A model generated the notes under the pieces. The model worked only from the letters and a program-made list of their open reading frames with translations. It was not told the DNA's origin and did not search any database. From Siminovitchia terrae (GTDB lineage Bacteria > Bacillota > Bacilli > Bacillales > Bacillaceae_C), in NCBI RefSeq assembly GCF_003605405.2, contig NZ_QYTW02000001.1, forward strand, positions 318,367-382,366: a stretch of DNA of 64,000 bases, written 5' to 3'. Position numbers and translations under genes: made by a program. Each line of letters opens with the position of its first letter. The stretch's first letter is position 1. Positions 19,329-38,092 of the stretch are shown here, one piece after another.

Positions 19329-19913
19329 TTACTCATCAAAAGCCTGTATGGCAACAAACTTCCACTCCAGATTGAGTGCATCTCCCTGGAATTGGTTTTG
19401 GTCTTCTCCATTATCAATGAAGGAGAATTTTACAACAAGACGGTCACTGGCTCCGCTCGGAAGTCCCCCTTTGCCGATTGCCGGAATGGTGATATTTTTT
19501 GCTACAGCATCCGGTGACATATTTTTTAAGCTTGCCAGAGTAGTTTTATAGATCGGTTGATTTTGTTTGTCCATGTTCAGCAAAAATTCCACTGAAATAT
19601 GCTCCCCGAAATCTTCCGTATTGTCTCCCTTTGCATCAACAACAGTATAGTTTGTTTCTATCATCACTTTGCTGATGTCTAGTGAGCCGTTGTTTTTAAG
19701 TGTGAAACTCCGAAGAAAGGAGTCCCCAGGCTTCATATTTTTTACATTGATCAGTGTATTTGGATTCACGGACAAATCCAGTGTTCCCGATGCAAATGTA
19801 TTATCCGACACCTTATTATCGCTGAAATAGGCATAGGTTCCGCCACTTAATAGAGCGATCCCAAGCAGGATGGACATCAAACCGACCCTGAAGCCTTTCA
19901 TCATATGCACCAT
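19329..19913 (-). CDS. TasA/CalY (camelysin)-like secreted matrix protein, copy 2
   Basis: The 194-residue secreted protein has an N-terminal signal segment ending GGTYAYFSDN, the typical SipW-type cleavage region. A beta-rich domain follows with FASGTLDLSVNP, GDSFLRSFTLKNNGSLDI, and NGEDQNQFQGDALNLEW. The family comprises the TasA amyloid fibre subunit and CalY/camelysin (M73). It is closely related to the protein at 21655-22242. The true start is uncertain: ATG 19913, GTG 19910 or the ATG pair near 19904 all follow GGGGGAG. It lies 36 bp after the M28 peptidase gene. Confidence 0.88.
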   Translation of the reverse strand: MVHMMKGFRVGLMSILLGIALLSGGTYAYFSDNKVSDNTFASGTLDLSVNPNTLINVKNMKPGDSFLRSFTLKNNGSLDISKVMIETNYTVVDAKGDNTEDFGEHISVEFLLNMDKQNQPIYKTTLASLKNMSPDAVAKNITIPAIGKGGLPSGASDRLVVKFSFIDNGEDQNQFQGDALNLEWKFVAIQAFDE

Positions 19914-19948
19914 TCACTCCCCCTTCCCTACAAACGAAGTCTAAATAC

Positions 19949-21574
19949 TTAAGAAGCTTCTTTTAAATCTTTTTCCTGATTATTATGATCAATCAGGAAG
20001 TCAAATATGGCTTTGCTGACGATGTCTCCTGCAAATTGAAGTCTTTCAGGACTAATATTTTCGATTGTATCGTGATATGTGTGATATTCCGGTTCCAATC
20101 CGCCGTTTGCAGTCCCCATATTAAAGCAAGCTGCGGTAATGCCCGCATTATGGAATGGAACGTGGTCAGATGATCCCCTTTTGAAAAGAATCAGTTTTTC
20201 TTTGTCCTTGCCTAATTTATCAAAGGCATTATTTGTGTAATCCCAGGCTGTGTTTGCTTTTCCATCAACCGTATTGACCGCAAGATATGAAGCAGGCTCA
20301 TATTTCGCTCCCAGCATTTCCATCTGGAAGTTAATCAAACTCCTGTCTAGATCCTCCTTTGGAAGATTGCGCACATAGTAATTTGAACCGACTAAACCAA
20401 TCTCTTCTGCACCAAAGGCAACGAATCTCAGTTCTTTATCAGTCGGGAAGTTCTTTAGAATTCTTGCCAATTCAACAATTGTACTGGTCCCTGATCCGTC
20501 ATCATTTGCTCCCGGAGAATAGGGGACACTATCATAATGAGACGTGACGTACACAATTTCAGGATTGACAACGTTTGCTGGCTTCTTCACTGCAATTACA
20601 TTCTGAGATGTTTGATTTGCATGTGTATGAATAATCAAATTGGCTTTCACATCACCTTTTGAAAGCTGTGCGAGTATAGATTCGCCCAACTCTTTCGAAG
20701 TGCCGACTACTGGAATCGTGCTATTGTTATTCAACGCAGGACGAAGCGGGGTAAGGCTGTCCACGTTATCATAAATGACAACGCCAATCGCTCCGGCATT
20801 GGTTGCATTCTGCACTTTTTCCCAGTAGGAATTCTCTCCTCTTTGAACTAATGCGATTTTACCTTTTGCATCATCCGTAAAATCGCCCGGCTGGCCAAGG
20901 CCTGCATGATAAATGGAACCCGTAACCCCTTTTGCGTCGGTTACAGATGATCCTGTAGCGGCACCCAAAGCAAGTTCCTTATTATTGTTTAGGATTTTCA
21001 ATGTTCTTTCTGTCCGGTTACTGATCGAAAACTCTTGAATGGAGGTTTCATATCCGAAGCTCTGAAACTGATTTTTCAAGTATTCCGCGGCTTTCTTTTC
21101 ACCTTTCGTACCGGCAACTCTCGGTCCGATCTCTACACTTAATTGATGCAAGTAATCCATCACTCTATCAGAATCAAATACAGTATCCCACTTACTGATC
21201 AACGCATCGGCATAGTCTCTTAAGAGATTGTCCGCATTCTCGGAAATCATTCCTTTATTTCCATAGCTGTTGAGTAAAACATAGAAGCTTTCCATGTGTT
21301 TGATCGCTTTTTTGTATGATTTGCTGCTTTCGTAATGTCCCACCGCAGTGATATGGGTCTTTAAAGCCCGAGAAACAGCAGCACTTGAAAACTCCCCATC
21401 TTTTTCCAGACGGTCAAGAAGCGCCTGCATGTTAACTATGCTAGTTTCTGTTTCCTCTTGGGTAATTGCCGGGCTGCTTGTATGATTGTACTCTATGCTC
21501 TTCGGAGAAAATCCGACCAGCGTAGAACCGATTAATACTGCTGATAAAAAGGCGCCAAAGCGACGTATTTTCAT
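19949..21574 (-). CDS. secreted M28 aminopeptidase with N-terminal FIMAH module
   Basis: This 541-residue exported peptidase has a signal peptide (1-30) and a FIMAH-type helical module at about 48-130 (RALKTHITAVGHYE, AIKHMESF). A PA-like domain follows (AGAIGVVIYDNVDS), then an M28 zinc domain with SHYDSVP, GANDDGSG, FGAEEIGLVGS and SSDHVPFH. The metal-site strand usually written NxDM is NFQMEMLG here, a Glu in place of Asp. It is a close relative of the M28 half of the 1290-residue proteins. The gene lies between the two TasA-like genes, after a small hairpin at 21621-21642 that may reduce its expression. Confidence 0.9.
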   Translation of the reverse strand: MKIRRFGAFLSAVLIGSTLVGFSPKSIEYNHTSSPAITQEETETSIVNMQALLDRLEKDGEFSSAAVSRALKTHITAVGHYESSKSYKKAIKHMESFYVLLNSYGNKGMISENADNLLRDYADALISKWDTVFDSDRVMDYLHQLSVEIGPRVAGTKGEKKAAEYLKNQFQSFGYETSIQEFSISNRTERTLKILNNNKELALGAATGSSVTDAKGVTGSIYHAGLGQPGDFTDDAKGKIALVQRGENSYWEKVQNATNAGAIGVVIYDNVDSLTPLRPALNNNSTIPVVGTSKELGESILAQLSKGDVKANLIIHTHANQTSQNVIAVKKPANVVNPEIVYVTSHYDSVPYSPGANDDGSGTSTIVELARILKNFPTDKELRFVAFGAEEIGLVGSNYYVRNLPKEDLDRSLINFQMEMLGAKYEPASYLAVNTVDGKANTAWDYTNNAFDKLGKDKEKLILFKRGSSDHVPFHNAGITAACFNMGTANGGLEPEYHTYHDTIENISPERLQFAGDIVSKAIFDFLIDHNNQEKDLKEAS

Positions 21575-21620
21575 ATAGAAAGCCTCCTTTATTTAGTTTT
21601 GTAAATATTTTCCGTTAAAT

Positions 21621-21642
21621 TGGAGCAGGATATCACCTGCTC
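21621..21642 (-). terminator. hairpin between the TasA-like and M28 genes
   Basis: GGAGCAGG and CCTGCTCC pair over 8 bp with a six-base loop. The T tract on the minus strand is weak. It may act as a partial terminator or mRNA-stabilising structure downstream of the abundant fibre-protein message. Confidence 0.5.
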
Positions 21643-21654
21643 CGATTTTGTCCT

Positions 21655-22242
21655 TTATCTTTGTTCACCGGGCTTTTGTGTCGCATTAAATGTCCATGTT
21701 AATTTCAGTGAATCTCCCTGGAACTGGTTTTGATCTTCTCCGTTATCAAGGAAATTAAATTTAACGATGAGGTCATGCGTTTCTCCAACCGGAAGTCCTT
21801 TATCACCAATCTCGGGATAAAAAATATGTTGATTCACAGCTTCTGGCGTCATATCTTTCAGGTCTGCTAAAGTTGTTTCAAAAATAACTTCATCCAGATT
21901 ACTCACGTTATATAGAAATTCCACCTGAATATGTTCTGCCATGTCTTCTGTATTGTCCCCTTTAGCATCATTGACAATATAATCTGTTTCCAGCAATACC
22001 TTATCGATGTCCAGCGATCCTCCATTTCCTAGTTCAAAGTCACGGATAAATGAATCGCCAGGAGCAATATTGTCGACATTGATAATTTCTGTCGGGGATA
22101 GTGTCAAATCAAGAGTACCCGCTGCAAAAGTATTATTTGTCGTTTCCGTATCGCTGAAATAAGCATAAGTCCCTCCGCCAATCAACGCTGCCCCCAAAGC
22201 CACAGTCATCATGCCCTTACCAAAACGCTTTTTCATACCCAT
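21655..22242 (-). CDS. TasA/CalY (camelysin)-like secreted matrix protein, copy 1
   Basis: The 195-residue protein has an N-terminal export signal with GGGTYAYFSDT at the expected SipW cleavage site. The CalY/TasA beta domain contains FAAGTLDLTLSP, GDSFIRDFELGNGGSLDID and NGEDQNQFQGDSLKLTW. It would form or decorate extracellular fibres. It follows sipW by 76 bp, in the order tapA-sipW-tasA known from B. subtilis. Confidence 0.92.
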   Translation of the reverse strand: MGMKKRFGKGMMTVALGAALIGGGTYAYFSDTETTNNTFAAGTLDLTLSPTEIINVDNIAPGDSFIRDFELGNGGSLDIDKVLLETDYIVNDAKGDNTEDMAEHIQVEFLYNVSNLDEVIFETTLADLKDMTPEAVNQHIFYPEIGDKGLPVGETHDLIVKFNFLDNGEDQNQFQGDSLKLTWTFNATQKPGEQR

Positions 22243-22318
22243 ACTTCATTCCCCCAATAATTTATTTTTTCTATCTCAAAGAGATAGGCACTACCCACTT
22301 TCAAAAATAAGATGGATG

Positions 22319-22897
22319 CTATTCATTTGGCGTTTGCGCTTCTGAATCCCTATAGTTTTCTGAAATTCGCATTGTCCGCCAGAGCGTGATAAGACCATGT
22401 CCTATCAGCAATATTCCAGGTAAAAACAATAACAGCGCTGCCCCCAGCCGCGATTCTGTGATTTTAAATGCATAGCCCACATACGGAATCGTAATCCCCG
22501 TGTATCGACCAACGATATTTTTAATATGGACAGGTTCCAAATCTGGACCATTGTTATGATCGCCTTTTGTAATAAAATGGCTCCCTCCGTCTTTCACTTT
22601 TGCAATCCTATGCGTCACGAGGATATTTTCTTCTGTGATAAAAGTGATGACATCACCTTTTTCAAATTGATCCCTATCTGACGCAACTTTGATAAAAATG
22701 ATGGAGCCAGTTTTGATATCAGGCTCCATCGAACCGGAAAGGACAGCCTTCATTTGATAGCCAAAAATGCTGGGATTTTCACCAGACATCTTGGATGTAA
22801 CCACATTGAACAAGATGACAGCCAGGACGATCAACGATAGTGTCGATCCAATATTTCCGATTGCTTTCTTCGTTTTTTGCCACTTCTGCCACTTCAT
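22319..22897 (-). CDS. sipW: ER-type signal peptidase SipW
   Basis: This 192-residue membrane protease has two hydrophobic segments (about 15-35 and 148-170). The catalytic serine is in VLSGSMEPDI (Ser56), and VTHRIAKV supplies His96 in place of the usual bacterial lysine. The 40-residue Ser-His spacing equals that of B. subtilis SipW (Ser47/His87). It would process the two TasA/CalY-like proteins and perhaps the TapA-like protein. It lies 42 bp after the tapA-like gene in one operon. Confidence 0.95.
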   Translation of the reverse strand: MKWQKWQKTKKAIGNIGSTLSLIVLAVILFNVVTSKMSGENPSIFGYQMKAVLSGSMEPDIKTGSIIFIKVASDRDQFEKGDVITFITEENILVTHRIAKVKDGGSHFITKGDHNNGPDLEPVHIKNIVGRYTGITIPYVGYAFKITESRLGAALLLFLPGILLIGHGLITLWRTMRISENYRDSEAQTPNE

Positions 22898-22939
22898 AGT
22901 AAAACATCACCCCGACCTGTTTTGGGTTATAAATAGCCC

Positions 22940-23404
22940 TTACTGAACTAGTGCTTCCTCTTCTTCTTTGCCGCTAAGATCGGCATCATCTAAATCATTC
23001 GTTTGTTGATCCACAGGTTCGGCTTCTTCGGACTCTGCTTTTTCACTTTGGGTGGCAGCACCATGATCGACCTCATCTGACTTTCCTGTGTCATCCATGT
23101 CATCCTTTTCGTTTTCACTTTCGTTCGACTTCGCCTGGTTATGATCCAAATCACTTTCTGTGTCTATTTCCGCTTCTTCCTCTTGGTCGGATGTCTGAGC
23201 ATCGTCAGACTCATCTGTTTCCTCTAACTGATCACTGACAAACATCTCACCCGTTATTTTTTCCTCATAAGTGTAATGTGCAGTTGTCGGAGCAGTCAGA
23301 TGAAAGGCGATGACAATTAACAAATATAAAATAACAAACCGCTTGATGATTAGATGTTTCTTTAAGGAAACTGCCACTTTTTTTGCTATTTGAAAGCCTT
23401 TCAT
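22940..23404 (-). CDS. short TapA-like protein with acidic tail
   Basis: The product is 154 residues from ATG 23404, which has AAAGGAG eight bases upstream. An export/membrane segment (FVILYLLIVIAFHLTAP) is followed by TTAHYTYEEKITGEMFVS, which resembles the region around the TapA cleavage site and fibre-nucleating segment. The rest, about 90 residues, is extremely acidic and low in complexity (Asp, Glu, Ser). B. subtilis TapA is longer and has a folded domain that is missing here. Location directly before sipW supports a fibre-anchoring or assembly role; the name is tentative. It starts only 18 bp after the upstream peptidase gene. Confidence 0.7.
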   Translation of the reverse strand: MKGFQIAKKVAVSLKKHLIIKRFVILYLLIVIAFHLTAPTTAHYTYEEKITGEMFVSDQLEETDESDDAQTSDQEEEAEIDTESDLDHNQAKSNESENEKDDMDDTGKSDEVDHGAATQSEKAESEEAEPVDQQTNDLDDADLSGKEEEEALVQ

Positions 23405-23422
23405 CCAATTTGCTCCTTTCAA

Positions 23423-26400
23423 TTAAGATGCTTTTTTCTTTCCGTCCCCTTGCTCCTGTGCTATGAGGTCTGATACTGCAGAATAAATGATACTGCCGAT
23501 GATCTGCATTCTATCCGGACTGACATTTTCAATTACATCACCAGGAGTGTGGTACCATGGTTCCAAGCGATGAACGACAGGCTCTTCCCAGATGAAAAGT
23601 GCTGCATCGATTCCGGCTTCATAGAACGGGATGTGATCCGATCCGCCAGAGCGGTACATGTGCAAAATCTTTTCATCTATTCCCAGCTTGGCAGCTGCTG
23701 CTTTTCCTGACTCCCATGCCAGGTTGGACTTGCCATCACCTGTATTCACAGACAATTGAGTAGCCTTGTCCCAATTTGTTCCAACCATATCCAGGTTAAA
23801 GTTGACCAAACTTCTGCTTACTTCCTCTTTTGACAACTGACCAACATAATATCTGGAACCAACCAATCCAATCTCTTCAGCACCAAAGGCAACGAATCTG
23901 ATTTCTTTATTAGTTGGGATGTCCTTGAAATTCCTAGCTAACTCCAGTATGGAGGAGGTCCCCGTTCCATTATCATTGGCACCCGGCGAACCAGGGACAC
24001 TGTCATAATGGGCGGTAATGTAGACGATTTCCGGATTTGCAACCCCTTTAGGCTTTTTCACCGCAATGACATTCTGTGATGTTTGATTCGTCAGTGTCCG
24101 CACGGTGAGATTGACTTTCACTTCTCCAGAAGAAAGCTTCGATAGCAGCCCTTTTCCATCCGCCTGTGTAATCCCGACTACTGGGATGGTGCTTTGATTA
24201 TTCCCTAGGCTTGGGTTAACAGGAGCAAGACTTTCCGTATTGTCATAAATGATGACACCTGTTGCTCCCGCTTTCGTTGCGTTATCAACTTTTTCCCAAA
24301 AGCTGTTATCGCCTCTTTCAATCAGAGCGATTTTTCCTTCAGCTTCTTCAGTAAAATTCTCTGGCTTTCCTAATCCTGCATGAAAAATATCTCCAGTAAT
24401 TCCTTTTTCATCTGTTTGCCCCGATCCGGCTGATACAGCGGAATGCAATTTCTTATTGTTATCAGATACTATCTTCAATTCACCACTGACCCTATCCCGG
24501 ATACTAAATTCCTGAGTAGAAACGGCATATCCAAGCTTCTCGAATTCATTTTGAATGTATTGGGCAGCCTGTTTTTCTTCATCCGTGCCTGTTACCCTTG
24601 GCCCAATACCCACACTCAATTTCTGCAGATGCTGCATTGCCTTTTCAGGATCAAAGCGTTTATCCCATTTTTCTATCAAATCATCTGCATATCCCTTTAG
24701 AATACGCGCAGCTTTTTCTGAAATGAGCTTATTCTTCACCTGCTGATCGAGCAGTGTCTTGAAGCTGTTCATATGTTTAATGACTTTATCTGCTTCTCTT
24801 TTCTGTTCGTAAACCTCTACTGCAGTCAAGTGGGTTTTTAGTGCGCGTGCCGCAACAGAGCTCGCAAACTCATCTTCAGACTCAAAACGCTCAACAAGTT
24901 CTTTCATTGCCTTGGCGCTTACTCCCTCAGCCAAGTAGTCGATGACAATTTTCGCTTGATTGTAGTCGTTTTTATCTCCATCAGGATTGTATCCGTTTTC
25001 AATATTTCCTGCTGCATCTATGGAGAACCAATTGATCGTGGTGGTTTCATCGATTTTTAAGGATTCCGCCGCCTCTCTTGTTCCAGCCACTTGAATCGCT
25101 TTCGATTTGAATGTCGGCCTTGATCCGTCAAGCGTATAATAGACAGTTGCCGGTTCACTCGTTTCAAACTTGATTTCCACAGGATTGTTATAGGTTCCAG
25201 CTCCTGGAGTTATTTTAGATTCAGGCCTAACATCATCGTTCGCATTTTCATAAGCCACTTCAAACATCCCGATAAGCCCGTTAGCAAATTCCATTGCCTC
25301 AGCATGTCCTTCGCTAAATGCTGGCTGGAAACCAGCGGCTGTCCACCGTTTGGTTTCGGCATTCCACAGATCTGCTCCAACTTCAAAGTTCCATGCATAG
25401 ATACCGTGTTCGTACCAAAGCGTATCCGCGGAGTTGCCTCCTGCCGAATACAATACATCCGGAATCGGCCCGGTTCGGCTTGGCAAAATGACAGTTCCAC
25501 GATGCTCTTTGATCCTTTTTAAAATATGCTCGGACGCTTGCCAATAATAGGCTTCCTCTCCAGCTGTAGGTCGGGGAAGCGTTACCCGGTTTGCATCATA
25601 TGCTCCAGGTGACCACATGAAATAACCGCCATAAGCATGGATATTCATCGCAAATTTAATGTTCGGATTTTCTTCTGCCAGCCAATTCAAGTTCTGTGCC
25701 TCAGGTTCTGAGAATGGTTCCGGTCCAGCAAAGGTATCGGAGGTACAACTCTTCGATCCACCAATCCAGCCGTCCCATACCGTTCCAATTTTATAATTTC
25801 GGTTTAAGTCGACTCCCCATGAATTGCGGTAAGCCGGATCAGATGCTTCAGGTCCGCAGTGGTTCGTCAAATTTCTCCGTTGAGAATTGTAATCATAAAA
25901 TGAATAGTGTCCACCGTCTGGATTAACGCTTGGAACGATAAATATGTCCAAGTTATCTACTAGCTTCTTCGTATTCTTATCTGTATGGTAATTTCGCAGT
26001 AGTCTCTCTGCGGTTTCAACAGAGACGAGCGGCGTTACCCATTCACGCGCGTGTTCCTGAGAGTAGCCTAAAACTCCTGGTTTGGAACCGTCACGTACCT
26101 TACCGATACGAATGGCTTTCACTTCGAATGGATCCCTGGAAACTTCTTTTGGAGCCTTTAAATTATCGGTCAATTTAATATCACTTTGCGGTTGCACAAT
26201 GCCAGTCCCGTTGGAGTTTCTATATCTTGCGGCAGTTACCAAATCGCCAGCTTTCTCGTTGATAGCTTTGATCACTGCATCGGATGTACTGTTATTTCCG
26301 AGATTAACCGTCAAATGGCTGCCATCGAGTTCAACTCCCAAAGCGGAATCCCCATTTTTGGGCGCTTTAATATCAACCGTAATATCGTTACCACCTTCGT

Positions 26401-27295
26401 GTCCCCATGCTTTTGAGGTAAGCACTATTGCCGAGTTCACAACACTTCCAATCGTAACTTGGGCTTTCCGTCTATAACCGTTTGTTTTTTCAGGGAGAGC
26501 CACAATTTCAGCCAACTCAGGGAAATCCTTGGCAAGCTGTTCAATCCTTTCCGTCACTTCGGTCGGTGTCATATATTTGTCAACAAAGTCACTAAAATAA
26601 TCATCATCTCCAGGGGTTCCGTCGCCGATCCATTCTTTCAACCCCGTCTCGACCTTCCCGCCCTGGTTAGTAGTAATAACGACATTTTCCGGAACAGAAT
26701 CGATATCCATTAGTACATAGTGATATAAATATTCTCCCGCATCAATCTTCCGGGTCATGGCAGCGGTCTGTTTATTTCCCTTGCCATCTATCCATTCTGC
26801 TGTCATTACGGTATTGGGACCAGCACTTGACTTCACTTCAAGATACAAAAACAATCCTGAATGATTTTTGAAATAATCCGCTCGAAATACCTTTACATTG
26901 TCGGCCTGCTGTACAAGTTGCCGTTTCTTCTTTTCTGTCTGCTCCTGCTGCCGCAACAGCTTTTTGCCTTCTTCAGCAGTTTGGATAACTGTCACTTTGT
27001 ATCCTTTCAGCTTTAACATCTCAATGTCAGCCTCTGTCACTACCGCCTGCACCTCGAGCTGCCCGTTTCGATCACTGACATATCCTGTCAGGTCAAAACC
27101 TTTTATTACCAAGTCCTCCACTGCCTTCCGATCTGGTACAACAATTTCCACAAGCGCCGTTTCCCGTTCAAACTCAACCTTTGTCGTTTCCTCTTTAGGG
27201 GCCGCTGCAGTGGGATTTACAAAAAAAGAGGAAAGCGTTAAAGCAACGATGCTTGTCCCTGCTATGAAATGTGACACAAATCGTCTGTAAAGCAC
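23423..27295 (-). CDS. M14-FIMAH-M28 fusion metallopeptidase, copy 1
   Basis: The 1290-residue secreted protein has a signal peptide (1-32) and an N-terminal pro-like region to about 230. An M14 carboxypeptidase domain carries HAREW (His415, Glu418), NIHAYGG (His553) and NFEVGA (Glu638). A chitobiase-C-like beta module follows (about 700-770, YYTLDGSRPTFKSK), then a FIMAH module (about 797-880) and a PA plus M28 aminopeptidase domain (about 880-1280; HYDSVPGSPGANDNG, GAEEIGLVGS, NFNLDMVG, GSDHIPF). An extra module of about 110 residues interrupts the M14 domain before the HxxE motif. It can act from both peptide ends. GTG start with GGGGGGA upstream. It heads the tapA-sipW-tasA row. Confidence 0.92.
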   Translation of the reverse strand: MLYRRFVSHFIAGTSIVALTLSSFFVNPTAAAPKEETTKVEFERETALVEIVVPDRKAVEDLVIKGFDLTGYVSDRNGQLEVQAVVTEADIEMLKLKGYKVTVIQTAEEGKKLLRQQEQTEKKKRQLVQQADNVKVFRADYFKNHSGLFLYLEVKSSAGPNTVMTAEWIDGKGNKQTAAMTRKIDAGEYLYHYVLMDIDSVPENVVITTNQGGKVETGLKEWIGDGTPGDDDYFSDFVDKYMTPTEVTERIEQLAKDFPELAEIVALPEKTNGYRRKAQVTIGSVVNSAIVLTSKAWGHEGGNDITVDIKAPKNGDSALGVELDGSHLTVNLGNNSTSDAVIKAINEKAGDLVTAARYRNSNGTGIVQPQSDIKLTDNLKAPKEVSRDPFEVKAIRIGKVRDGSKPGVLGYSQEHAREWVTPLVSVETAERLLRNYHTDKNTKKLVDNLDIFIVPSVNPDGGHYSFYDYNSQRRNLTNHCGPEASDPAYRNSWGVDLNRNYKIGTVWDGWIGGSKSCTSDTFAGPEPFSEPEAQNLNWLAEENPNIKFAMNIHAYGGYFMWSPGAYDANRVTLPRPTAGEEAYYWQASEHILKRIKEHRGTVILPSRTGPIPDVLYSAGGNSADTLWYEHGIYAWNFEVGADLWNAETKRWTAAGFQPAFSEGHAEAMEFANGLIGMFEVAYENANDDVRPESKITPGAGTYNNPVEIKFETSEPATVYYTLDGSRPTFKSKAIQVAGTREAAESLKIDETTTINWFSIDAAGNIENGYNPDGDKNDYNQAKIVIDYLAEGVSAKAMKELVERFESEDEFASSVAARALKTHLTAVEVYEQKREADKVIKHMNSFKTLLDQQVKNKLISEKAARILKGYADDLIEKWDKRFDPEKAMQHLQKLSVGIGPRVTGTDEEKQAAQYIQNEFEKLGYAVSTQEFSIRDRVSGELKIVSDNNKKLHSAVSAGSGQTDEKGITGDIFHAGLGKPENFTEEAEGKIALIERGDNSFWEKVDNATKAGATGVIIYDNTESLAPVNPSLGNNQSTIPVVGITQADGKGLLSKLSSGEVKVNLTVRTLTNQTSQNVIAVKKPKGVANPEIVYITAHYDSVPGSPGANDNGTGTSSILELARNFKDIPTNKEIRFVAFGAEEIGLVGSRYYVGQLSKEEVSRSLVNFNLDMVGTNWDKATQLSVNTGDGKSNLAWESGKAAAAKLGIDEKILHMYRSGGSDHIPFYEAGIDAALFIWEEPVVHRLEPWYHTPGDVIENVSPDRMQIIGSIIYSAVSDLIAQEQGDGKKKAS

Positions 27296-27518
27296 TTAAT
27301 TCCCCCCTACTTAAAATTTTTAGAATTCCTTCGTCGATTATATCAGTATTTTTAGAAGATTGTTATAGTTTGGAATAAAATGATTATATAGCATTATAAA
27401 GATAACATTTTTTACAACGGTGGATGGTATATTAGTAACATCGTTAAATAGGCTTATTTACCAATAAGTAGTTCTTTATTCCTGTCATTGAGTTTTTAAT
27501 ACAAAAATCGTTCAAAAG

Positions 27519-28993: not shown

Positions 28994-29589
28994 TTTCCTC
29001 ACTCCTTTCAAATTTTCCCTCTTTGCCACTTGGTTGAATAGCACAGTTATGTAAGAGGTTCATATGGCCAGTGTCAGTTGCAGGAACCAATAGCTTCTTT
29101 TAATTACTACGCACATCACCCCCTTTAGCATCAAACAAGACCAATACTTACTCCTATGCCTTCTGAAAATCAATAGCAGTTAAATCATTCGTAACCAATA
29201 AAATTTAACCGTAAAATATCCGTTATGTTTGAACAGAAAAAAATCATATCCTTTCAGATTTTTTGACGAATATCTATGATATAGAATGATTGAAAACAAC
29301 CTCTTCATTCCAAATATTCGCAATTTATCATTTGCGAATGTATATGTATCATGCTTTATTCCCCCGATTTAAGGACTTTCGTGTCATTTTTGATTCAAAT
29401 TAGCTAGACTTTGTCTAACGAAATCTTATCAGATTTATCTAAATATTAGAATAAGAATTATGAAAACGGTTCCAAAGAAACGGGTATATTATTATTTTTT
29501 AGTACTAAGTTACTTTATCCAAGTCGTAATGATTAGTAGAAAAGTAGTTCCCGCCTGCCAAATACCTGTAAAATCAGTTTTTAGACATT
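28994..29589. other. AT-rich intergenic region with an inverted repeat
   Basis: The region holds no convincing gene. It must contain the promoter of the M14-FIMAH gene. Bases 29316-29339 form a perfect 8-bp inverted repeat (ATTCGCAA / TTGCGAAT, 8-base gap) that could be an operator; nothing identifies the regulator. Confidence 0.4.
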
Positions 29590-29991: not shown

Positions 29992-32900
29992 CTAAGATGC
30001 TTTTTTCGACTGTGTGCCCTGTTTTTGGGTAACAAGCTCTGATACAGCCGAATGGATGATGTTTCCAACCATTTGTATTCTTTCAGGGCTGACATTTTCA
30101 ATTTTATCATTCGGCGTGTGGTACCAAGGCTCCAATCCGGCTGTTCCAGGTACCATCCAAATAAATAGCGCTGCATCAATGCCGGCTTCATGGAAAGGTA
30201 CATGGTCTGACCTACTGAATTGGTACAAGTTCAGAACATTGTCATCTATGTTCAACCTTTCTGAAGCCGCTTTCACTGATTGCCATACAGTATTGGATTT
30301 CCCATCTACCGTGTTGACATACAATTGGGAAGCAGGCTCATAATTTGTTCCAACCATATCCAAGTTGAAATTAGCAATACTTCTGGAGATTTCATCTTTA
30401 GACAACTGGCTGACGTAATATCGGGATCCAACTAATCCGATCTCCTCTGCACCGAAGGTAACAAACCTGATTTCTTTATTATTTGGTATATTTTTCATTG
30501 CGTTAGCCAATTCAAGAATGGTAGTGGTTCCCGATCCATTATCGTTGGCTCCTGGCGAACCGGATACACTGTCATGATGCGAGGTAACATATACGATTTC
30601 AGGGTTTGGAATTCCCTTCGGTTTCTTTACTGCTATGACGTTTTGCGACTTTTGATTAGTAAAAGTACGCACCATTAAATTGACCTTTAACTCACCTGAG
30701 GAAGCTTTTGAAAGCAAGTCCTTTCCATCCGCTTGAGTTATACCGACTACAGGAATAGTACTCTTATTATTACCCAAGCTTGGATTAATAGGAGAGGCAC
30801 TATCCGTATTGTCATAAATGATGACACCTGCCGCTCCCGCTTTCATTGCATTTTCAACTTTCTCCCAAAAAGAGAGTTCCCCTCTTTGAACAAGCGCAAT
30901 TTTTCCTTCTACATCTGAAAGCTCTTCTGGTTTACCCAACCCAGAATCAACTACATCTCCTGTAATTCCTTTTTCATCCGTTTGGGATGATCCGGTTGAG
31001 ATTGCTATGTTCAGCTTTTTATTGTTATTGGAAATCACTTTTAATTCTCCGCCAAACCGATCAGGTATACTAAACTCCTGAGTGGAAACGTCGTATCCCA
31101 GTTTTTTAAACTCATTTTGGATATATTGGACTGCTTGTCTTTCCTCATCTGTTCCGGTGACTCTTGGTCCAATGTCCACACTCAAATGCTGAAGATGTTT
31201 CATCGCTTTTTCTGAGCTGAATTGTGCATCCCATTTCTCAATCAGTTGATTCGAATAGGATTTGAGAATGCGGACCACTTTTCCGCTGACCAGCTTGTCC
31301 TTCTCCTGCTGTTCAATCAGTAAGTTGAAGCTCTTCATATGCTTCGTTACTTTTTCTGCATCGTTTTGCTTCTCGTATAACGCAACTGCCGTCAAGTGTG
31401 TTTTCAGTGCCCTGGCAGCCACTTCACTGGCGAATTCGCCCTCTTTCTCAAAACGCTCAACGAGTGATTTCATGCCATCGGCAGTGACGCCGTCAGGCAA
31501 ATAATCAATAACAAACTTCGCTTCGTTGTAATTGTTTTCTTTCCCGTCTGGATCATAGCCGTTTTCGACATTCCCCGCTGCATCCACCGAGAACCATTTA
31601 ATTGTTGTTGTTTCATCAAGCGTTATGGTTTCGGCACCATCCCTCGTACCGGCAACTCCAATTACTTTGGATTTCAGTGTCGGTCTGGAACCATCAAGCG
31701 TGTAATAAATGGTGGCAGGCTTACTAGTCTCGAATTTGATTTCAACAGGTTCGTTGTATGTGCCTGCCTTAATATTAAGCTTTGATTCAGGGCTCACGTC
31801 GTCATTGAAATTATTAAGCGCCACTTCGAACATTCCGATTAACCCATTGGCAAATTCCATTGCTTCAGCATGCCCTTCCTCAAATTCAGGTTGGAAGCCA
31901 ACACTTACCCAGCGCTTTGTAGCGGCATCCCACAAAGGCGCCCCAACTTCAAAGTTCCAGGCGTAAATTCCATGTTCATACCAAAGCGTATCAGCGGAAT
32001 TGCCTCCTGCAGAATACAATACATCAGGAATCGGGCCTGTCCTTCCAGGCATAATGACTGTTCCGCGATGTTCTTTGATTTTCTTCAAAATATGTTCGGA
32101 TGCCTGCCAATAATAGGCTTCCTCCCCAGCAGTCGGACGTGGCAATGTCACACGATTTGCATCATAAGCTCCAGGTGACCACATGAAATAACCGCCGTTC
32201 GAATGAATATTCATCGCAAATTTAATATTCGGGTTCTCTTCAGCCAGCCAATTCAAGTTCTGTGCTTCTGGCTCTGAGAAGGGCTCTGGACCAGCGTACG
32301 TACCTGAAAGACATTCCTTTGATCCGCCTATCCAGCCATCCCACACAGTCCCGATTTTATAGTTTCGGTTCAAATCAACTCCCCACGAATTACGGTATCC
32401 GGGATCAGATGTTTCTGGTCCACAATGATTGACTAAGTTCTTCCGCTGCATATTATAATCATAGAAAGAGAAATGTCCGCCATCCGGGTTAACACTCGGC
32501 ACAATGAATATATCGAGATTATCTACAAGCTTCTTAGTATTTTCATCAGTATGATAGTTTCTTAGCAAGCGCTCGGCAGTTTCTACTGAAACAAGAGGGG
32601 TCACCCATTCGCGAGCATGCTCCTGCGAATACCCAAGTACCCCCGGTTTAGAGCCGTCACGTACTTTACCAATCCGAATCGCTTTAACTGTCCACGGATC
32701 CCTGGAAATCTCTTCAGGTGCCTTCAGATTATCGGAAAGAGAAATGCCTGATTGAGGTTCAACAATCCCTTTTCCATCCGAATTTCTATACTTTTCTGCA
32801 CTTACCAAATCACCTGCTGCCTTATTGATAGCCTCTATTATTTCGGCAGATGTACTATTTGGTTTTACCGCCCCATCCGTTCCCAGTATTACTGTGATCT

Positions 32901-33864
32901 GATCACCATCTACCTCCACCTTCAAGTCAGTATTCGCTTTATTGGCTGATTTCAACTCAACCTTTATATCATTTCCTCCCTCATGCCCCCAAGCTTTTGA
33001 GGTAAGAACGAAAGCAGCATTTGCTGCATTACCAATCGTTGCCTGTGCATGTCGGCGGTATCCATTTGTTTTATGGGGCAACGAGACAATTTCCGCCAAT
33101 TCAGGAAACTCTTCAGCCAACTGTTCAACCCGCTCCGTGACCTCCGTTGGGTTCATGTAGTGGTCAACAAAATCGCTGAAATATTCATCACCAGAAGGTG
33201 TACCATCGCCGATCCATTCAGTTAGTTTGGTTTCGATCTTTCCTCCCTCTTTTGTAGTGATCGTCACATTTTCCGGAACAGCATCAATGTCCGTTAAGAT
33301 GTAATGATAGAGGTATTCTCCAGCATCGACTTTTCTTGTCATGGAACCCGTTTCTTTTTCCCCTTTGCCATTTGTCCATTCAGCTGTCATCGTGGCGTCT
33401 GGGCCGACACTTGATTTTACCTCTAGGTATAAAAATGTCCCTGACTGATTTTTAAAATAATCCGCCCGAAAAACTTTCAGCTTGTCTTCCTGCTGAATCC
33501 TCTGCATCTTCCTTTCTTGTTTTCTTAATTTCTCGTTTGCCTCCTGTGCAGTCTGGATCGTTTTCACTTTCAACCCTTGCAGTGTTAACATTTTAATGTC
33601 AGCTTCGCTTACAATTAACTGCACTTCGATGTCCCCGTTCCGGTCATTTAATCCTGCAATATCAATCCCTTTCGTGACCAAATCATCCAAGACTTTCCGA
33701 TCCGGCAGAATTGTTTCGACGAGTGACATCTCTCGTTCAAACTCGACTTCCTTTTCGGGTTCCTTGGACACCGCGGAAATTGGCTGAACACCGAAAGAAA
33801 TCATCGTCAAGGCCATAACACTGGATACAGCAAGCATTCGAGACGTGAACTTTTTTATGCTCAT
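29992..33864 (-). CDS. M14-FIMAH-M28 fusion metallopeptidase, copy 2
   Basis: This is a paralogue of the protein at 23423-27295 with exactly the same length (1290 residues) and domain order: signal peptide, pro-like region, interrupted M14 domain (SKAWGHEGGND insertion edge, HAREW, NIHSNGG, NFEVGA), chitobiase-C-like module (YYTLDGSRPTLKSK), FIMAH, and PA plus M28 (HHDSVSGSPGANDNG, GAEEIGLVGS, NFNLDMVG, RSDHVPF). ATG 33864 has AGGGGAGG upstream. It is monocistronic: gaps on both sides hold terminators or repeats. The duplication suggests a need for high dosage or slightly different specificity. Confidence 0.92.
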   Translation of the reverse strand: MSIKKFTSRMLAVSSVMALTMISFGVQPISAVSKEPEKEVEFEREMSLVETILPDRKVLDDLVTKGIDIAGLNDRNGDIEVQLIVSEADIKMLTLQGLKVKTIQTAQEANEKLRKQERKMQRIQQEDKLKVFRADYFKNQSGTFLYLEVKSSVGPDATMTAEWTNGKGEKETGSMTRKVDAGEYLYHYILTDIDAVPENVTITTKEGGKIETKLTEWIGDGTPSGDEYFSDFVDHYMNPTEVTERVEQLAEEFPELAEIVSLPHKTNGYRRHAQATIGNAANAAFVLTSKAWGHEGGNDIKVELKSANKANTDLKVEVDGDQITVILGTDGAVKPNSTSAEIIEAINKAAGDLVSAEKYRNSDGKGIVEPQSGISLSDNLKAPEEISRDPWTVKAIRIGKVRDGSKPGVLGYSQEHAREWVTPLVSVETAERLLRNYHTDENTKKLVDNLDIFIVPSVNPDGGHFSFYDYNMQRKNLVNHCGPETSDPGYRNSWGVDLNRNYKIGTVWDGWIGGSKECLSGTYAGPEPFSEPEAQNLNWLAEENPNIKFAMNIHSNGGYFMWSPGAYDANRVTLPRPTAGEEAYYWQASEHILKKIKEHRGTVIMPGRTGPIPDVLYSAGGNSADTLWYEHGIYAWNFEVGAPLWDAATKRWVSVGFQPEFEEGHAEAMEFANGLIGMFEVALNNFNDDVSPESKLNIKAGTYNEPVEIKFETSKPATIYYTLDGSRPTLKSKVIGVAGTRDGAETITLDETTTIKWFSVDAAGNVENGYDPDGKENNYNEAKFVIDYLPDGVTADGMKSLVERFEKEGEFASEVAARALKTHLTAVALYEKQNDAEKVTKHMKSFNLLIEQQEKDKLVSGKVVRILKSYSNQLIEKWDAQFSSEKAMKHLQHLSVDIGPRVTGTDEERQAVQYIQNEFKKLGYDVSTQEFSIPDRFGGELKVISNNNKKLNIAISTGSSQTDEKGITGDVVDSGLGKPEELSDVEGKIALVQRGELSFWEKVENAMKAGAAGVIIYDNTDSASPINPSLGNNKSTIPVVGITQADGKDLLSKASSGELKVNLMVRTFTNQKSQNVIAVKKPKGIPNPEIVYVTSHHDSVSGSPGANDNGSGTTTILELANAMKNIPNNKEIRFVTFGAEEIGLVGSRYYVSQLSKDEISRSIANFNLDMVGTNYEPASQLYVNTVDGKSNTVWQSVKAASERLNIDDNVLNLYQFSRSDHVPFHEAGIDAALFIWMVPGTAGLEPWYHTPNDKIENVSPERIQMVGNIIHSAVSELVTQKQGTQSKKAS

Positions 33865-34108: not shown

Positions 34109-34145
34109 AAAAAACCCCTTGCACGAAATGATGCAAGGGAAAAAC
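34109..34145 (-). terminator. terminator of the M28-FIMAH gene
   Basis: CCCTTGCA and TGCAAGGG form an 8-bp stem with an 8-base loop. On the minus strand it is followed by GTTTTTT. Confidence 0.85.
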
Positions 34146-34147: not shown

Positions 34148-35365
34148 TCATTTGTTCCACTTCTTCTCCAAAGCCATTGAATCCACTTTTAGAATATGGT
34201 ACGCCTTATCCGAAATCTGTCCATCGTTTTTTTGATGTTCGAGCAATTGGACAAATCCTTTCATATGCTTCGCTGCTTTATCAATTGAACCTTTATCTTC
34301 ATAATGTTTGACTGCAGTCAAATGTGTGGATAGGGCTCGAGCAGCCCCGTCATTTGTAATTCCACCTTCATCACGAGCATACTCAACGAGCCTATTAATA
34401 TGCTCTATACTTGATGGCTCTGCCGCAGCCAACTGAAGGACAAGCTTGGTTAAAATATGCGAATAAGAGTTCAGTCTTTCCATACGCTCCGGAAATTCAG
34501 AAAGGATAAATCGCATATTATCTTTGGAAGGATCGTGCCAAATCCCGCCGTGCTTTTCTGTTTGTGTATATCCATCCATGTCTCCAATTTCCCAATTGGT
34601 AGATTCAAGATACCCAAATGGAATACCTTTTTGATGGAATGGTGCATGGTCACTCCAGTCCCCAGTTGTCCCTTTGGGATAGTCTGGATTCAATCCAGGA
34701 TTTGTTTGAAGACCGATGCCAATTTCTTTACCAATATCCAAAGCCAATTCTCTTACGAAGCCTTTTTTGCCCAAGCCTCCATAAACATACATATTGTCGC
34801 CGACTATCAAGCTGTCCAGATTGATCATGGCTTTCGTATTGGCAATATCAGAGGCATTCATCTTAGCCACATATGCATTCGAACCTCTGAGTCCTGATTC
34901 CTCCGCACCAAAAGCTATAAAACGAATCGTATATGGTATTTTCAAATCCTTGATCCTTTCGGCTGTCTCCAGCATGACACCAACACCTGATCCATTATCC
35001 TCTACACCTTCCACACCACGCACCGAGTCATAGTGGGCACCAATAATAATTTCCTCTTTTAAACTGCCTCGCTTGATGGCGATGACATTGGCAGAGTCCA
35101 CAGTAGTTCCTCTGTTAGTATAGGAAAATGCTTGAATTTCGGTATCATATCCAAGGTCCTCGAAGGCTTGAAATAGATAATCCCGTGCCCGTTCCTCGCC
35201 TTTTGTCCCAGCAACCCTCTCTCCAATATTTTGTGATAAATACGATAAATGTTGAAAAGCAATGCTACCAAACTCTTTATCTATTGCCTGCGCTGAAAAA
35301 CCATTACAGATAACCCCAAAGGTCATGATGAGAACAATAATACAATATCGTTTGATTCCCTTCAT
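34148..35365 (-). CDS. secreted M28 aminopeptidase with C-terminal FIMAH module
   Basis: The 405-residue exported enzyme has a signal peptide (1-27) followed by an M28 domain without a PA insert. Metal-site motifs are AHYDSVRG, VEDNGSGVG, FGAEESGLRGS, NLDSLIVGD and WSDHAPFHQKG. The last ~85 residues are a FIMAH module (AARALSTHLTAVKHYE, AAKHMKGFVQLLEHQ). Here the order is M28 then FIMAH, the reverse of the 19949-21574 protein. It has its own terminator, so it is a single-gene unit. Confidence 0.92.
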   Translation of the reverse strand: MKGIKRYCIIVLIMTFGVICNGFSAQAIDKEFGSIAFQHLSYLSQNIGERVAGTKGEERARDYLFQAFEDLGYDTEIQAFSYTNRGTTVDSANVIAIKRGSLKEEIIIGAHYDSVRGVEGVEDNGSGVGVMLETAERIKDLKIPYTIRFIAFGAEESGLRGSNAYVAKMNASDIANTKAMINLDSLIVGDNMYVYGGLGKKGFVRELALDIGKEIGIGLQTNPGLNPDYPKGTTGDWSDHAPFHQKGIPFGYLESTNWEIGDMDGYTQTEKHGGIWHDPSKDNMRFILSEFPERMERLNSYSHILTKLVLQLAAAEPSSIEHINRLVEYARDEGGITNDGAARALSTHLTAVKHYEDKGSIDKAAKHMKGFVQLLEHQKNDGQISDKAYHILKVDSMALEKKWNK

Positions 35366-35575
35366 ACATACCCACCCCCACTTAAATTAATAAATTCATG
35401 CCACCAAACCAGTGTCTTGATTACAGCTGCCAATATGTTCGGTTTCGTGTTTTCCAAGCTGGCAATGTTATTTACCTATTCTAGTTCACCATAAGAAATA
35501 AATTTTTATCAACAATAAAGCGCCCTTTAAATCCCGTTATTACACTTTTTAGCTAATGTTAAAAGGCAATCGTAT

Positions 35576-38092
35576 TTATTCCCATTTCTTGATCAGTGCA
35601 TTCGTATCAGACTTTAATAAATGGTACACTTTTCCAGAAATCAACCCATTGTTTTTCTGATGCTCAAGCAGCTGGTCAAAACCTTCCATATGCTTGACAA
35701 CCTTATCAGCCTGCCTCTTTTCCTCATACAAGTTGACTGCCGTCAAATGGGTGGTCAAGGCACGTGCATCCTCGTCGTTTTTAAATGCTCCTTCTTTCGC
35801 ATAACGTTCCACACGGGCCTTTGTCCCTGCGGCGGTTGTTAAAATCGTTTCTTCTCCCGGATAAATCGCGTTTGTCAGAAGCCTGTAGAGATATTCAGGA
35901 TGCGCACGGAATCCAACTTCCATCCCAAATAATGTAACTCCAGGATCAGCCCCTTTGATGATGACCGGCTGTCCCTGTGCAGGCTGAGGATTCTTCCAGA
36001 ATCCGGCTTTGAAGAATTTCCCTTCTCCAAATGAGGCTGCTACTCTATCATTCTCAACACTCGTATACCAGACTGGATTATAAACGAACCCAATATCCTG
36101 TTCCTTATAACTAGCAGTGATAGATGTATCCCCATAGAGTACATCGACGATCCCATTGCTGTTCGTTCCACCGCTGTTTACCGTCGCTTCAGTCAATTCA
36201 AGCTGTACAGCAGCCTTTGATGCGTTGGCACCGATGGCGATATATTTTCCTCCATTAGAAACAAACTCATGTATCGTTTCTTTATAGGCATCATTTTTGA
36301 CAATGCCCGAACCGTTGGCCACAAGAACATCAAACTCTGCCAATCCGTTAGCCTCAATATCCTGATCTCTGAGCTCAGTCACATCAAAGCCAAGCTGTTT
36401 AAGTGCTGTTCTAACTCCGTGTTGACCGCCATCATTTAAAATGGCGACATTAACTCTTTCTAACTCCTTAGCCTTTGCTGGCATCGGCTTGCTCATTAAT
36501 GCCAGACCTGATTCTTTCACCGCATTGGATAAGGAGGCGCTTCCCTGCTCGATATAAAAATGGCCATTTTCCCCCTTTAAAACAGAGATATTGCTTTGAA
36601 TCAGCCTGTTGACAAGGGCTATCGCTCCGACAGAGCTGTTTGTAATTTCGTAAGGGCCTGCGCCGATTAACTTGCCTTCTTCAATCGCCTTATTCACTTC
36701 TTTCATTGGAACGTCAATATCAGAATCGGTGGGGATCGCTTCAAATCCCCATAGCTCCGGCAGATTCCACGCAGAAATGTCATACATAGCTCCTACACGA
36801 TCACTAATATCTTCACCATCCCAAAGCAGTGTATTTACTAAGCCAGCTTTTGCCTGGTTAAGATTTATAATGTATGTTCCTTTATCATACTTGTTTCCAT
36901 CAATCAAAGCAGGACCTTCTACTTGGTGAATCTTTACACCGTATTTCAGAAGATGATTCACTGTTTTCACTGTTGCAGATGGATCTGTTTGATCAACAGG
37001 CAATACATACGCCCTAGGGAAAAATCCCGGTGCATGGTCCGGATGATCGAATTCGACACCGCGCCTGAATACCTCTATCTGATCCTCCAGCATTCCCACT
37101 TTATTTTTCACAGCATATTTCAAAGCACCCATTACAGCCTGATAATGCCATTCTACTCCGTCCTGAGTTTTGTTTGGGGTTTCAAGTGTAGAAACATAGG
37201 CGCCGTGATACATTCCATGTCCTGGAGCAAAGATCGGCGGATAGTCATCCCAGCCGTCCTCCGCATCACGATAAGGAATATGGGTCCCTTCCATATTTTT
37301 ATATAGATCGGTTTCAAATTTATCCTTATTTGCCACCAGTTCCGCTTCCATTGCTTCTGCCTGTGGCAAAGCCCACTTCAAATACAAATCATGTTCAGTA
37401 TTTGGATTATGCGGGCTTGTCGTAGGTTCAATCAGCCCCGGAGTCCGATTAGTACGCACAACAAATCCGTGCAAGTCCAAAAAGACCATGGGAACCCATT
37501 CTTTCATTAGTTCTACCGTAGCATGGGTTTCCGGCTGTGAAAGTGTCACAAAATCACGATTGACATCAAATCCGTTGCCATTTGCTCGTGTTCCGAGAAT
37601 ACGTCCGTCAGGATTTTGAACCACATTGAAAATCAGTATGTTATTTTCCAAGATACTCATTGTCTCTTCATCATTTTCGTATCCGAAACGATCAATTAAC
37701 TTTAGGATTGCATCAACACCCGGCTCTTCATTCCCATGAATAGACCCATTAATTAAAATAGGAACTTTAACATCAGGATTCTCAGCAACAAATTTTTTTG
37801 CTTTGGTCGGGTCAGCCACCATTAATTCCCTCAATTTTTTTGATTGATTAATGTCTTCGGCTGATTCAGCAATCACTACGCTATAAAGATCATGTCCCAT
37901 CGAAGATTGACCAATGACGTCCAGCGTTACACGTTCACTTTCTTTTACATGTTTTTCAAGAATGGGCAATATTTCCTCATACGGAACTGGCGTATAGGCA
38001 ACAGCATTAGCCTTTGCTGCTTGTGTGACTGGTGCGAGAAAAGAAAAAACCATCATGAATGCAATCAATGGAGCAAGTAAATGCCTTCTCAT
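35576..38092 (-). CDS. large secreted M14 peptidase with C-terminal FIMAH module
   Basis: This 838-residue exported protein has a signal peptide (1-25) and an N-terminal M14 domain with NGSIHGNEEPG (zinc His/Glu) and FLDLHGFV (third ligand). A long middle region (about 380-740) follows, part of which looks like a class-I-glutamine-amidotransferase-like or Rossmann module (VAILNDGGQHGVRTALKQLG, VLVANGSGIV). A FIMAH module (ARALTTHLTAVNLYE, KVVKHMEGFDQLLEHQ) closes the chain. ATG 38092 with GGGGGAAAGC upstream. Substrate unknown. Confidence 0.88.
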   Translation of the reverse strand: MRRHLLAPLIAFMMVFSFLAPVTQAAKANAVAYTPVPYEEILPILEKHVKESERVTLDVIGQSSMGHDLYSVVIAESAEDINQSKKLRELMVADPTKAKKFVAENPDVKVPILINGSIHGNEEPGVDAILKLIDRFGYENDEETMSILENNILIFNVVQNPDGRILGTRANGNGFDVNRDFVTLSQPETHATVELMKEWVPMVFLDLHGFVVRTNRTPGLIEPTTSPHNPNTEHDLYLKWALPQAEAMEAELVANKDKFETDLYKNMEGTHIPYRDAEDGWDDYPPIFAPGHGMYHGAYVSTLETPNKTQDGVEWHYQAVMGALKYAVKNKVGMLEDQIEVFRRGVEFDHPDHAPGFFPRAYVLPVDQTDPSATVKTVNHLLKYGVKIHQVEGPALIDGNKYDKGTYIINLNQAKAGLVNTLLWDGEDISDRVGAMYDISAWNLPELWGFEAIPTDSDIDVPMKEVNKAIEEGKLIGAGPYEITNSSVGAIALVNRLIQSNISVLKGENGHFYIEQGSASLSNAVKESGLALMSKPMPAKAKELERVNVAILNDGGQHGVRTALKQLGFDVTELRDQDIEANGLAEFDVLVANGSGIVKNDAYKETIHEFVSNGGKYIAIGANASKAAVQLELTEATVNSGGTNSNGIVDVLYGDTSITASYKEQDIGFVYNPVWYTSVENDRVAASFGEGKFFKAGFWKNPQPAQGQPVIIKGADPGVTLFGMEVGFRAHPEYLYRLLTNAIYPGEETILTTAAGTKARVERYAKEGAFKNDEDARALTTHLTAVNLYEEKRQADKVVKHMEGFDQLLEHQKNNGLISGKVYHLLKSDTNALIKKWE

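Follow-up and report, generated by a model that had tools for sequence, protein, structure and literature searches.

Type A FIMAH domains of secreted hydrolases are linked to sipW-tasA fibre genes in Siminovitchia terrae and related bacteria

The window analysed here is a stretch of 64,000 nucleotides from Siminovitchia terrae (contig NZ_QYTW02000001.1 of GCF_003605405.2, positions 318,367 to 382,366). Six genes for secreted peptidases, all with a FIMAH domain, are clustered at 19329–38092 of the window with genes for a short TapA-like protein, the signal peptidase SipW and two TasA-like fibre subunits. The link between FIMAH and sipW is conserved and specific to one type of the domain, FIMAH type A. 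Four parts, namely FIMAH type A hydrolases, a reduced TapA (mini-TapA), a dedicated SipW lineage and a dedicated TasA lineage, are co-inherited as a module. There is about an even chance that FIMAH type A holds secreted exo-hydrolases on the dedicated TasA fibre, which would be a functional analogue of the cellulosome.

Linkage of FIMAH type A with sipW, mini-TapA and TasA

A tree of 93 FIMAH domains (80 columns, domains from a first part of the loci), whose bootstrap had not settled, is split by a branch of length 1.74 with 100/100 support into type A (65 domains) and type B (28 domains). All 45 domains labelled as sipW-linked are on the type A side, and none is on the type B side. The type A score minus the type B score, with the profiles scored on their own members, is at least +59 in all 65 type A domains and at most −72 in all 28 type B domains. 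The type A search profile was made from 58 of the 65 type A domains and then run against genomes.

FIMAH is seen in 21 and SipW in 24 of 34 genomes of the same family. In a sample of 249 genomes of the order, 52 have FIMAH (E ≤ 1e-5) and 116 have SipW (E ≤ 1e-20). The set anchored on sipW comprises 132 loci plus the window, mostly with 10 kb on each side and less at contig ends; only SipW places above the cut-off were taken, and places in one stretch were counted once. TasA-family genes are found in 133 of the 133 loci and FIMAH genes in 20 with profiles built in this analysis, the stretches of G026 and G028 having been set with their FIMAH genes already known.

In the family, 13 of the 34 genomes contain type A domains at 60 bits or more, and all 13 have sipW about 10 kb or less away, including G019, whose sipW matches are fragments at contig ends. 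Among the FIMAH matches listed for the eight family genomes with FIMAH but no type A, none is near sipW. In the order sample, 15 of 49 type A places lie within 10 kb of sipW, against 0 of 79 places of other FIMAH, 41 of which are in genomes with above-cut-off sipW. Without the window genome, linkage is seen in six of the nine genomes having both, where 0.30 would be expected (P 2e-9); this expectation treats clustered copies as independent, which raises it. Based on this count, a chance gathering of secreted enzymes is rejected. Also rejected is the idea that FIMAH in general marks sipW loci, with 0/79 for the other FIMAH.

A wider sample of 397 genomes gave ten new genomes positive for type A. 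Two of them (G362 and G295) are multi-copy, with sipW about 400 and 440 bp from a type A domain, respectively. They were new when the pattern was known, and linkage in G362 was expected, the expectation not being recorded beforehand. The other eight are single-copy, and sipW is absent within 10 kb of their type A domain. With all sets combined, every genome with two or more type A domains at 60 bits or more is linked to sipW (18/18; G091, at 55.8 bits, is left out of the counts by copy number). The sequence-only reading of the window had staked its proposal on conserved linkage in related genomes. Such linkage exists, limited to FIMAH type A.

A further set of named organisms was collected with a nine-row type A alignment from the best 80 of 107 matches, and at least ten of its 29 organisms overlap with the genomes above. 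It contains 70 loci from Siminovitchia, Lederbergia, Lentibacillus, Virgibacillus, Oceanobacillus, Heyndrickxia, Ornithinibacillus, Geomicrobium and records named Bacillus or Bacillales. The SipW and TasA closest to those of the window are in Bacillus norwichensis, followed by S. fordii, S. fortis and S. thermophila. Within the fetched stretches, sipW is found in 22 of the 29 organisms (23/70 loci), TasA in 26 (37/70 loci) and mini-TapA at 25 bits or more in 22 (25/70 loci). If the ten overlapping organisms are removed, the numbers are 14/19, 17/19 and 14/19, respectively.

The layout of these islands is compact. Forty of 48 TasA genes are less than 300 bp from a FIMAH gene and 47 of 48 are on its strand, and 19 of 26 mini-TapA genes have a FIMAH gene on the same strand less than 300 bp upstream. 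Among 214 adjacent component pairs separated by less than 1.5 kb, 203 have both genes on one strand. Besides the four parts, no gene family near the islands recurs in more than three genera, cohesin models not having been searched genome-wide. A further conserved scaffold gene in the islands is rejected on this basis.

All 20 linked loci contain a short ORF of 57–207 residues before sipW. This mini-TapA comprises a membrane or signal segment, an LTxPTxAxF/Y-like motif, a short strand and, in most copies, an acidic tail; those of L151 and L152 have 57 residues and no long tail. A simple motif pattern detects 13 of 16 mini-TapA ORFs identified from their position, and no unlinked ORF. The family model TIGR04087 matches 14 of the 16 at E 0.01, and also 67 of 103 ORFs upstream of unlinked sipW. 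With our own TapA profile, the Ig region is covered in 0 of 16 and 0 of 26 mini-TapAs, two sets which share genomes and contain some genomes twice, against 59 of the 103 unlinked ORFs, which were picked by position and include non-TapA proteins, so that up to 44 unlinked loci are without a recognised full TapA. The acidic tail alone was rejected as a mark of mini-TapA: some unlinked loci have acidic tails, and two linked ones lack a long tail. Mini-TapA is marked better by the absence of the Ig domain.

The donor-strand segment of mini-TapA, next to sipW, has the motif conserved in the alignment and a profile match to TapA positions about 5–62. In the window copy, AHY stands in place of the AxF of most others. 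According to passages of PMC10151520, secretion of only residues 44–57 of TapA gives proper biofilms in B. subtilis, the Ig domain of TapA corresponds to residues 71–190, and residues beyond 190 are dispensable. The lack of the Ig domain together with this published minimal segment, which was equated with the mini-TapA segment by eye, makes mini-TapA look like a natural minimal TapA. Part of PMC13082335 describes how, in B. cereus, CapP is anchored to the wall by its C-domain; by analogy, wall anchoring is a possible role of the acidic mini-TapA tail.

SipW and TasA of the linked loci form lineages of their own. A quick SipW tree with 158 rows, from which rows of the anchored set scoring under 205 bits were omitted, places 41 of the 42 FIMAH-linked rows in one set of 43 (SH-aLRT 99). 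The two unlinked rows in this set are sipW copies standing beside another sipW. The exception outside it is L217, where the mini-TapA match is weak (17 bits). A TasA tree with 175 rows, also made quickly and carrying a program warning about long branches in its other parts, groups 57 of the 61 FIMAH-linked rows in a single set (SH-aLRT 99) that contains 0 of the 114 unlinked rows. Some genomes enter both trees twice. These separate lineages support co-inheritance. Positions specific to the linked TasA lineage, e.g., E108, E118, E134 and D157, are only candidates for a docking face.

Fourteen of the 70 named loci (L213, L219, L222, L224, L226, L237 and others) contain FIMAH and a TasA-like gene with no sipW in the fetched stretch, as if they were extra fibre types sharing one SipW. 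The loci L209, L211, L250 and L251 are titled Bacillus subtilis DE0224 and carry many type A FIMAH genes; the species label looks wrong. At 38–421 of L199, an ORF of 127 residues consists of 14-residue repeats that are nearly identical (RAILHELRDFSPEL type); the cluster to which it belongs comprises five members from three organisms of one genus.

Tagged enzymes and the gene cluster of the window

Of 195 proteins in the named set, 194 have FIMAH in a single copy; the domain ends at most ten residues from the C-terminus in 162 of 196 cases. Among 176 non-redundant complete proteins, the 121 from loci with sipW, mini-TapA or TasA were scanned and the other 55 left out. FIMAH is present on all 121, in combination with many catalytic families. 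Among the first 25 families listed, GH3 and M14 are the most frequent (18 each), followed by M28 (14), the beta-lactamase fold and NamZ (12 each), Exo_endo_phos (10), gamma-glutamyltranspeptidase (7), M60 (at least 5), PL8 (at least 4), S15 and the GH20 domain (4 each) and GH101 (at least 3). The module was thus rejected as peptidase-specific. Where checked protein by protein, the enzyme kits look coherent, with peptide ends as the theme in the window. The scan of single proteins gave two GH3, NamZ, a beta-lactamase fold, an S13 D-Ala-D-Ala carboxypeptidase and Exo_endo_phos in Lentibacillus sediminis, and GH3, NamZ, a beta-lactamase fold and Exo_endo_phos in Virgibacillus salexigens. From their families, both kits read as peptidoglycan digestion.

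The 182 FIMAH proteins of the named set (L184–L253; the six window proteins are not included) were inspected for export and anchoring signals. A strongly hydrophobic stretch is present in the first 70 residues of 174. An LPxTG-like motif is found in the last 60 residues of 0/182, and a SipW-type signal is likewise found in 0/182. Sortase anchoring of FIMAH enzymes and FIMAH enzymes as SipW substrates were both rejected based on these counts.

In the window, ten ORFs make up the cluster, all on the minus strand and at the coordinates given earlier. Each of the six peptidases has a single PF22888 (FIMAH) match, with 63–80 bits against a curated cut-off of 24.8 bits, which bears out the earlier recognition of one helical module common to all six. 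Its position was said to vary by protein, and the match residues agree: it is N-terminal in the 19949 protein (residues 48–126 of 541), central in the two fusion proteins (796–875 and 796–876 of 1290 in 23423 and 29992, respectively), and C-terminal in 27560 (399–477 of 494), 34148 (321–398 of 405) and 35576 (755–834 of 838). No dockerin match is found in the six at E 0.01; the module common to them is FIMAH. A six-frame search of the window genome (a draft of 5,302,661 bases in 68 contigs) at E ≤ 0.001 gives six FIMAH matches, all within the cluster, and 0 of 14 control genomes has FIMAH.

The catalytic families are M28 in the 19949 and 34148 proteins, M14 in 27560 and 35576, and M14 plus M28 in a single chain in 23423 and 29992. 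In order of transcription, the cluster starts with an M14 carboxypeptidase-like exoenzyme (35576..38092; PF00246 53.9, PF22888 80.1, type A profile 114.7 bits) and an M28 aminopeptidase-like exoenzyme (34148..35365; PF04389 112.8, PF22888 79.1 bits), both with C-terminal FIMAH type A. These are followed by the second copy of an M14-FIMAH-PA-M28 fusion (29992..33864; type A profile 113.7 bits) and another M14 carboxypeptidase-like exoenzyme with C-terminal FIMAH type A (27560..29044; PF00246 73.6, PF22888 72.1 bits). The other copy of the fusion (23423..27295), assigned from domain matches, is likely the first gene of the matrix operon. The FIMAH-PA-M28 protein with N-terminal FIMAH type A (19949..21574), also assigned from domain matches, has NFQM at 415, where the other three M28 domains of the window have NLD. 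A likely metal-ligand Asp is thus Gln at residue 417, and Gln is also seen in four orthologues. From these residues, the protein may be inactive or altered with the FIMAH module kept. M14 enzymes digest peptides from the C-terminus and M28 enzymes from the N-terminus, and the window set would thus digest peptides from both ends.

The matrix genes are also on the minus strand. The mini-TapA gene (22940..23404) encodes a membrane or signal segment, the motif LTxPTxAxY and an acidic tail, with no Ig domain. It belongs to the family alignment, and its score of 22.6 bits with TIGR04087 (positions 13–66 of 186, the N-terminal first third only) is below the TapA equivalog cut-off of 80 bits. The SipW protein (22319..22897) has 207.7 bits with NF046067, above the equivalog cut-off of 190, and is placed in the FIMAH-linked lineage by the SipW tree. 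Two TasA-like subunits are encoded, subunit 1 at 21655..22242 (PF12389 278.7, TIGR04088 48.5 bits; PDB 8aur TasA, E 9e-12), placed in the FIMAH-linked lineage by the TasA tree, and subunit 2 at 19329..19913 (PF12389 261.2, TIGR04088 39.3 bits). Both have PF12389 and the SipW-type signal TIGR04088 of the TasA/camelysin group, and their 97.1 and 86.2 bits with NF046066 are below the 450-bit cut-off of the B. subtilis-type TasA equivalog.

The six genes from 27295 to 19329 are separated by gaps of 18, 42, 76, 80 and 35 bp. This tight spacing suggests one operon. The 18-bp spacing given earlier between the fusion gene and the tapA-like gene is true for the ATG at 23404; the longest tapA-like ORF starts with TTG at 23422 and abuts the stop codon of the peptidase gene. 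Peptidase genes were also described as lying before, inside and after the matrix row. They do flank the tapA-like, sipW and tasA-like genes, and one lies between the two tasA-like genes, but there is none between the tapA-like gene, sipW and the first tasA-like gene. Terminator-like hairpins at 34140–34115 (after the 34148 gene) and 29812–29786 (after the 29992 gene) suggest that the upstream peptidase genes are separate units; such sites number 24 in the region against 14.9 in shuffles. A promoter-like sequence with TG before the −10 lies at 27366–27337, ahead of the first fusion gene, and is weak evidence for a promoter, as the region has 44 such matches against a shuffled mean of 44.8, not above chance. 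An inverted repeat with a 13-pair stem (21617..21648, reported on the plus strand) is found between the first tasA-like gene and the FIMAH-M28 gene, and perhaps sets the ratio of fibre to enzyme.

Beside the island, 7994–19045 of the window contains a proline/hydroxyproline-type catabolic cluster: two proline-racemase-family proteins, a PrdR-like regulator, FAD and 2Fe-2S oxidoreductase subunits, a DHDPS-family protein, an aldehyde dehydrogenase and an amino-acid carrier. By eye, such genes also flank the islands of S. fordii (L186) and S. thermophila (L176), and they are absent from the visible flanks in B. norwichensis (L184) and S. fortis (L185). A cluster of this type would suit collagen-like peptides as food.

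Docking on the fibre and other explanations

In the mechanism proposed here, SipW would cleave mini-TapA and the TasA-like subunits, and the N-terminal A-x-F/Y segment of mini-TapA would seed TasA polymerisation. The enzymes would be exported via ordinary Sec-type signal peptides, and their FIMAH modules would dock on the fibre or on the acidic mini-TapA tail at the fibre base. A chosen enzyme set would be kept together at the cell, with the presumed benefit that products are freed beside uptake systems. Many type A enzymes are encoded away from sipW, e.g., 15 copies in G012 with one near sipW, as expected of a tag used in trans. It can be speculated, somewhat more tentatively than docking itself and with a chance a little short of even, that this is a Gram-positive counterpart of the cellulosome on a biofilm fibre, where the TasA filament seeded by mini-TapA is the scaffold, FIMAH type A is the docking tag, and lineages load exchangeable kits for digestion of peptides, peptidoglycan, and mucin or glycosaminoglycan, some enzymes being encoded far from the fibre locus.

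Several facts weigh against docking on the fibre. The main one is that only one of 14 genomes with a single type A domain at 60 bits or more is linked to sipW, which also speaks against a strict rule; at most 22 candidates per genome, or 14 in the 397-genome sample, were scored, and some of these "single-copy" genomes may hold more copies. For five of the 13 unlinked ones (G116, G213, G309, G334 and G412), the thresholds used gave no SipW match. FIMAH-bearing genomes of the order sample are not much richer in SipW, 24 of 52 having it above the cut-off. Type A domains carry a slight negative charge (−2.4 on average), not an obvious fit to docking on an acidic tail. The type B enzymes cluster in genomes without SipW (G006 and G008, with no SipW match at E ≤ 0.001), and FIMAH as a whole thus needs no fibres. 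Finally, co-location could reflect co-regulation only. The sequence-only reading is partly supported, through the conserved linkage. Its restriction to peptidases is too narrow, as many hydrolases are tagged, and its extension to all FIMAH is too broad, given that no type B domain is found at a sipW locus and that most single-copy genomes are unlinked.

In G006, G007 and G008, rows of large type B FIMAH enzymes (L179, L180 and L181) are seen in fetched stretches without sipW or TasA. Type B may serve another anchoring route.

The main rival is that FIMAH binds the wall or a polysaccharide, with the enzymes adhering to the cell envelope or their substrate, and that the TasA operon is adjacent due to a shared sessile, surface-feeding life and joint expression. 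Passages of PMC10167667 report that NnGH92, the one FIMAH protein found with a crystal structure, binds, without its FIMAH-like four-helix domain, yeast cell-wall extract about 50% less and keeps 81% of its activity, a result that also tells against fibre docking, and type B arrays in genomes without SipW and single type A genes without nearby sipW fit wall binding as well. Wall binding does not predict, however, that one subtype only is at sipW loci (15/49 against 0/79), nor that TasA, SipW and mini-TapA form dedicated lineages, and the tagged enzymes attack very different polymers, which makes a substrate-specific role unlikely. The wall is the strongest of the rivals and is still rather unlikely. 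The fibre is preferred to it, as the linkage is confined to one FIMAH subtype, the lineages of the fibre genes match, and no other shared gene is seen that could be the receptor. Docking is inferred and not certain, given the single-copy genomes that lack linkage and the finding on yeast wall extract, obtained with a domain that is type-B-like.

FIMAH might instead be a module for folding, stability or secretion efficiency in a hydrolase island that acquired the TasA operon once. According to part of PMC10167667, removal of the domain lowers the melting temperature of NnGH92 from 60 to 53 °C, and the association seems, from the SipW and TasA lineages, to have arisen mainly once. A single event plus inertia, however, leaves unexplained why the association is retained with differing enzyme sets over many genera, and TasA accompanies FIMAH genes also in the 14 of 70 loci that show no sipW; this explanation is improbable. 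Less probable still is that the enzymes act on the matrix, trimming or remodelling TasA fibres, wall or exopolymer in dispersal. Peptidases and peptidoglycan-type enzymes in or beside a fibre operon would fit such a role, but other islands have the glycan enzymes PL8, GH101 and M60, which suit feeding, and recurrent ORFs near the islands of two or three genera resemble, by eye (no family scan), genes for sugar transport or amino sugars.

TasA fibres have been studied mainly as structural parts of the matrix. A conserved TasA lineage co-inherited with tagged hydrolases would give the fibres a second job, the holding of digestive enzymes at the cell, and the unexplained FIMAH domain would gain its first functional hypothesis. 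The natural mini-TapAs independently match the minimal TapA segment defined in the laboratory. If docking is true, FIMAH type A is a small portable handle for enzyme display on bacterial fibres; if proved, the docking system would be of a new kind.

Comparison with known systems

The absence of any described link between FIMAH peptidases and TasA fibres, as stated earlier, agrees with the open-access full text, judged mostly by titles and the starts of abstracts; subscription papers are mostly outside this scope. By name, FIMAH appears in titles that concern only E. coli of the urinary tract. For NamZ/NagZ clusters, nothing bearing on the islands was found in the open-access full text by titles and the starts of abstracts.

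Like the tapA-sipW-tasA operon of B. subtilis, the window encodes TasA-family subunits processed by SipW and a TapA-family starter with T-x-A-x-F/Y directly before sipW. Unlike that operon, it has a starter without the Ig domain, SipW and TasA of separate lineages, and FIMAH enzymes in the gene row. B. cereus, with sipW-tasA-calY and CapP, resembles the island in having two TasA-family subunits, and has no TapA according to passages of PMC13082335. There, the disordered C-part of CapP anchors it to the wall and the N-part drives assembly; CapP and mini-TapA are set side by side by description only, and the passages mention no linked tagged enzymes.

The type A alignment matches residues 1325–1405 of NnGH92 (PDB 7nsn) weakly, with E 1.5e-5. 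The FIMAH or "FHB" domain of NnGH92 is likewise a C-terminal helical module of a secreted hydrolase, described in the part of PMC10167667 seen as a four-helix bundle of unknown function. By eye it is type-B-like, unlike the type A of the window. It therefore supports wall binding for FIMAH generally and leaves type A open.

The nearest published idea, from the abstract of PMC9329931, is that the EPS/TasA biofilm of B. subtilis retains cellulase and improves digestion. The likeness is a matrix that holds secreted hydrolases; the abstract mentions no tag or dedicated fibre operon.

In the cellulosome, dockerin-tagged enzymes are held on a cohesin scaffold. The islands resemble it in that a single small module, in one copy per protein and usually at the C-terminus, is found on many unrelated hydrolases, which are partly encoded far from the scaffold locus. 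They differ in that FIMAH is not a dockerin and no scaffoldin is seen among the gene families recurring near the islands; the scaffold proposed here is the TasA fibre, on which the FIMAH type A enzymes would dock.

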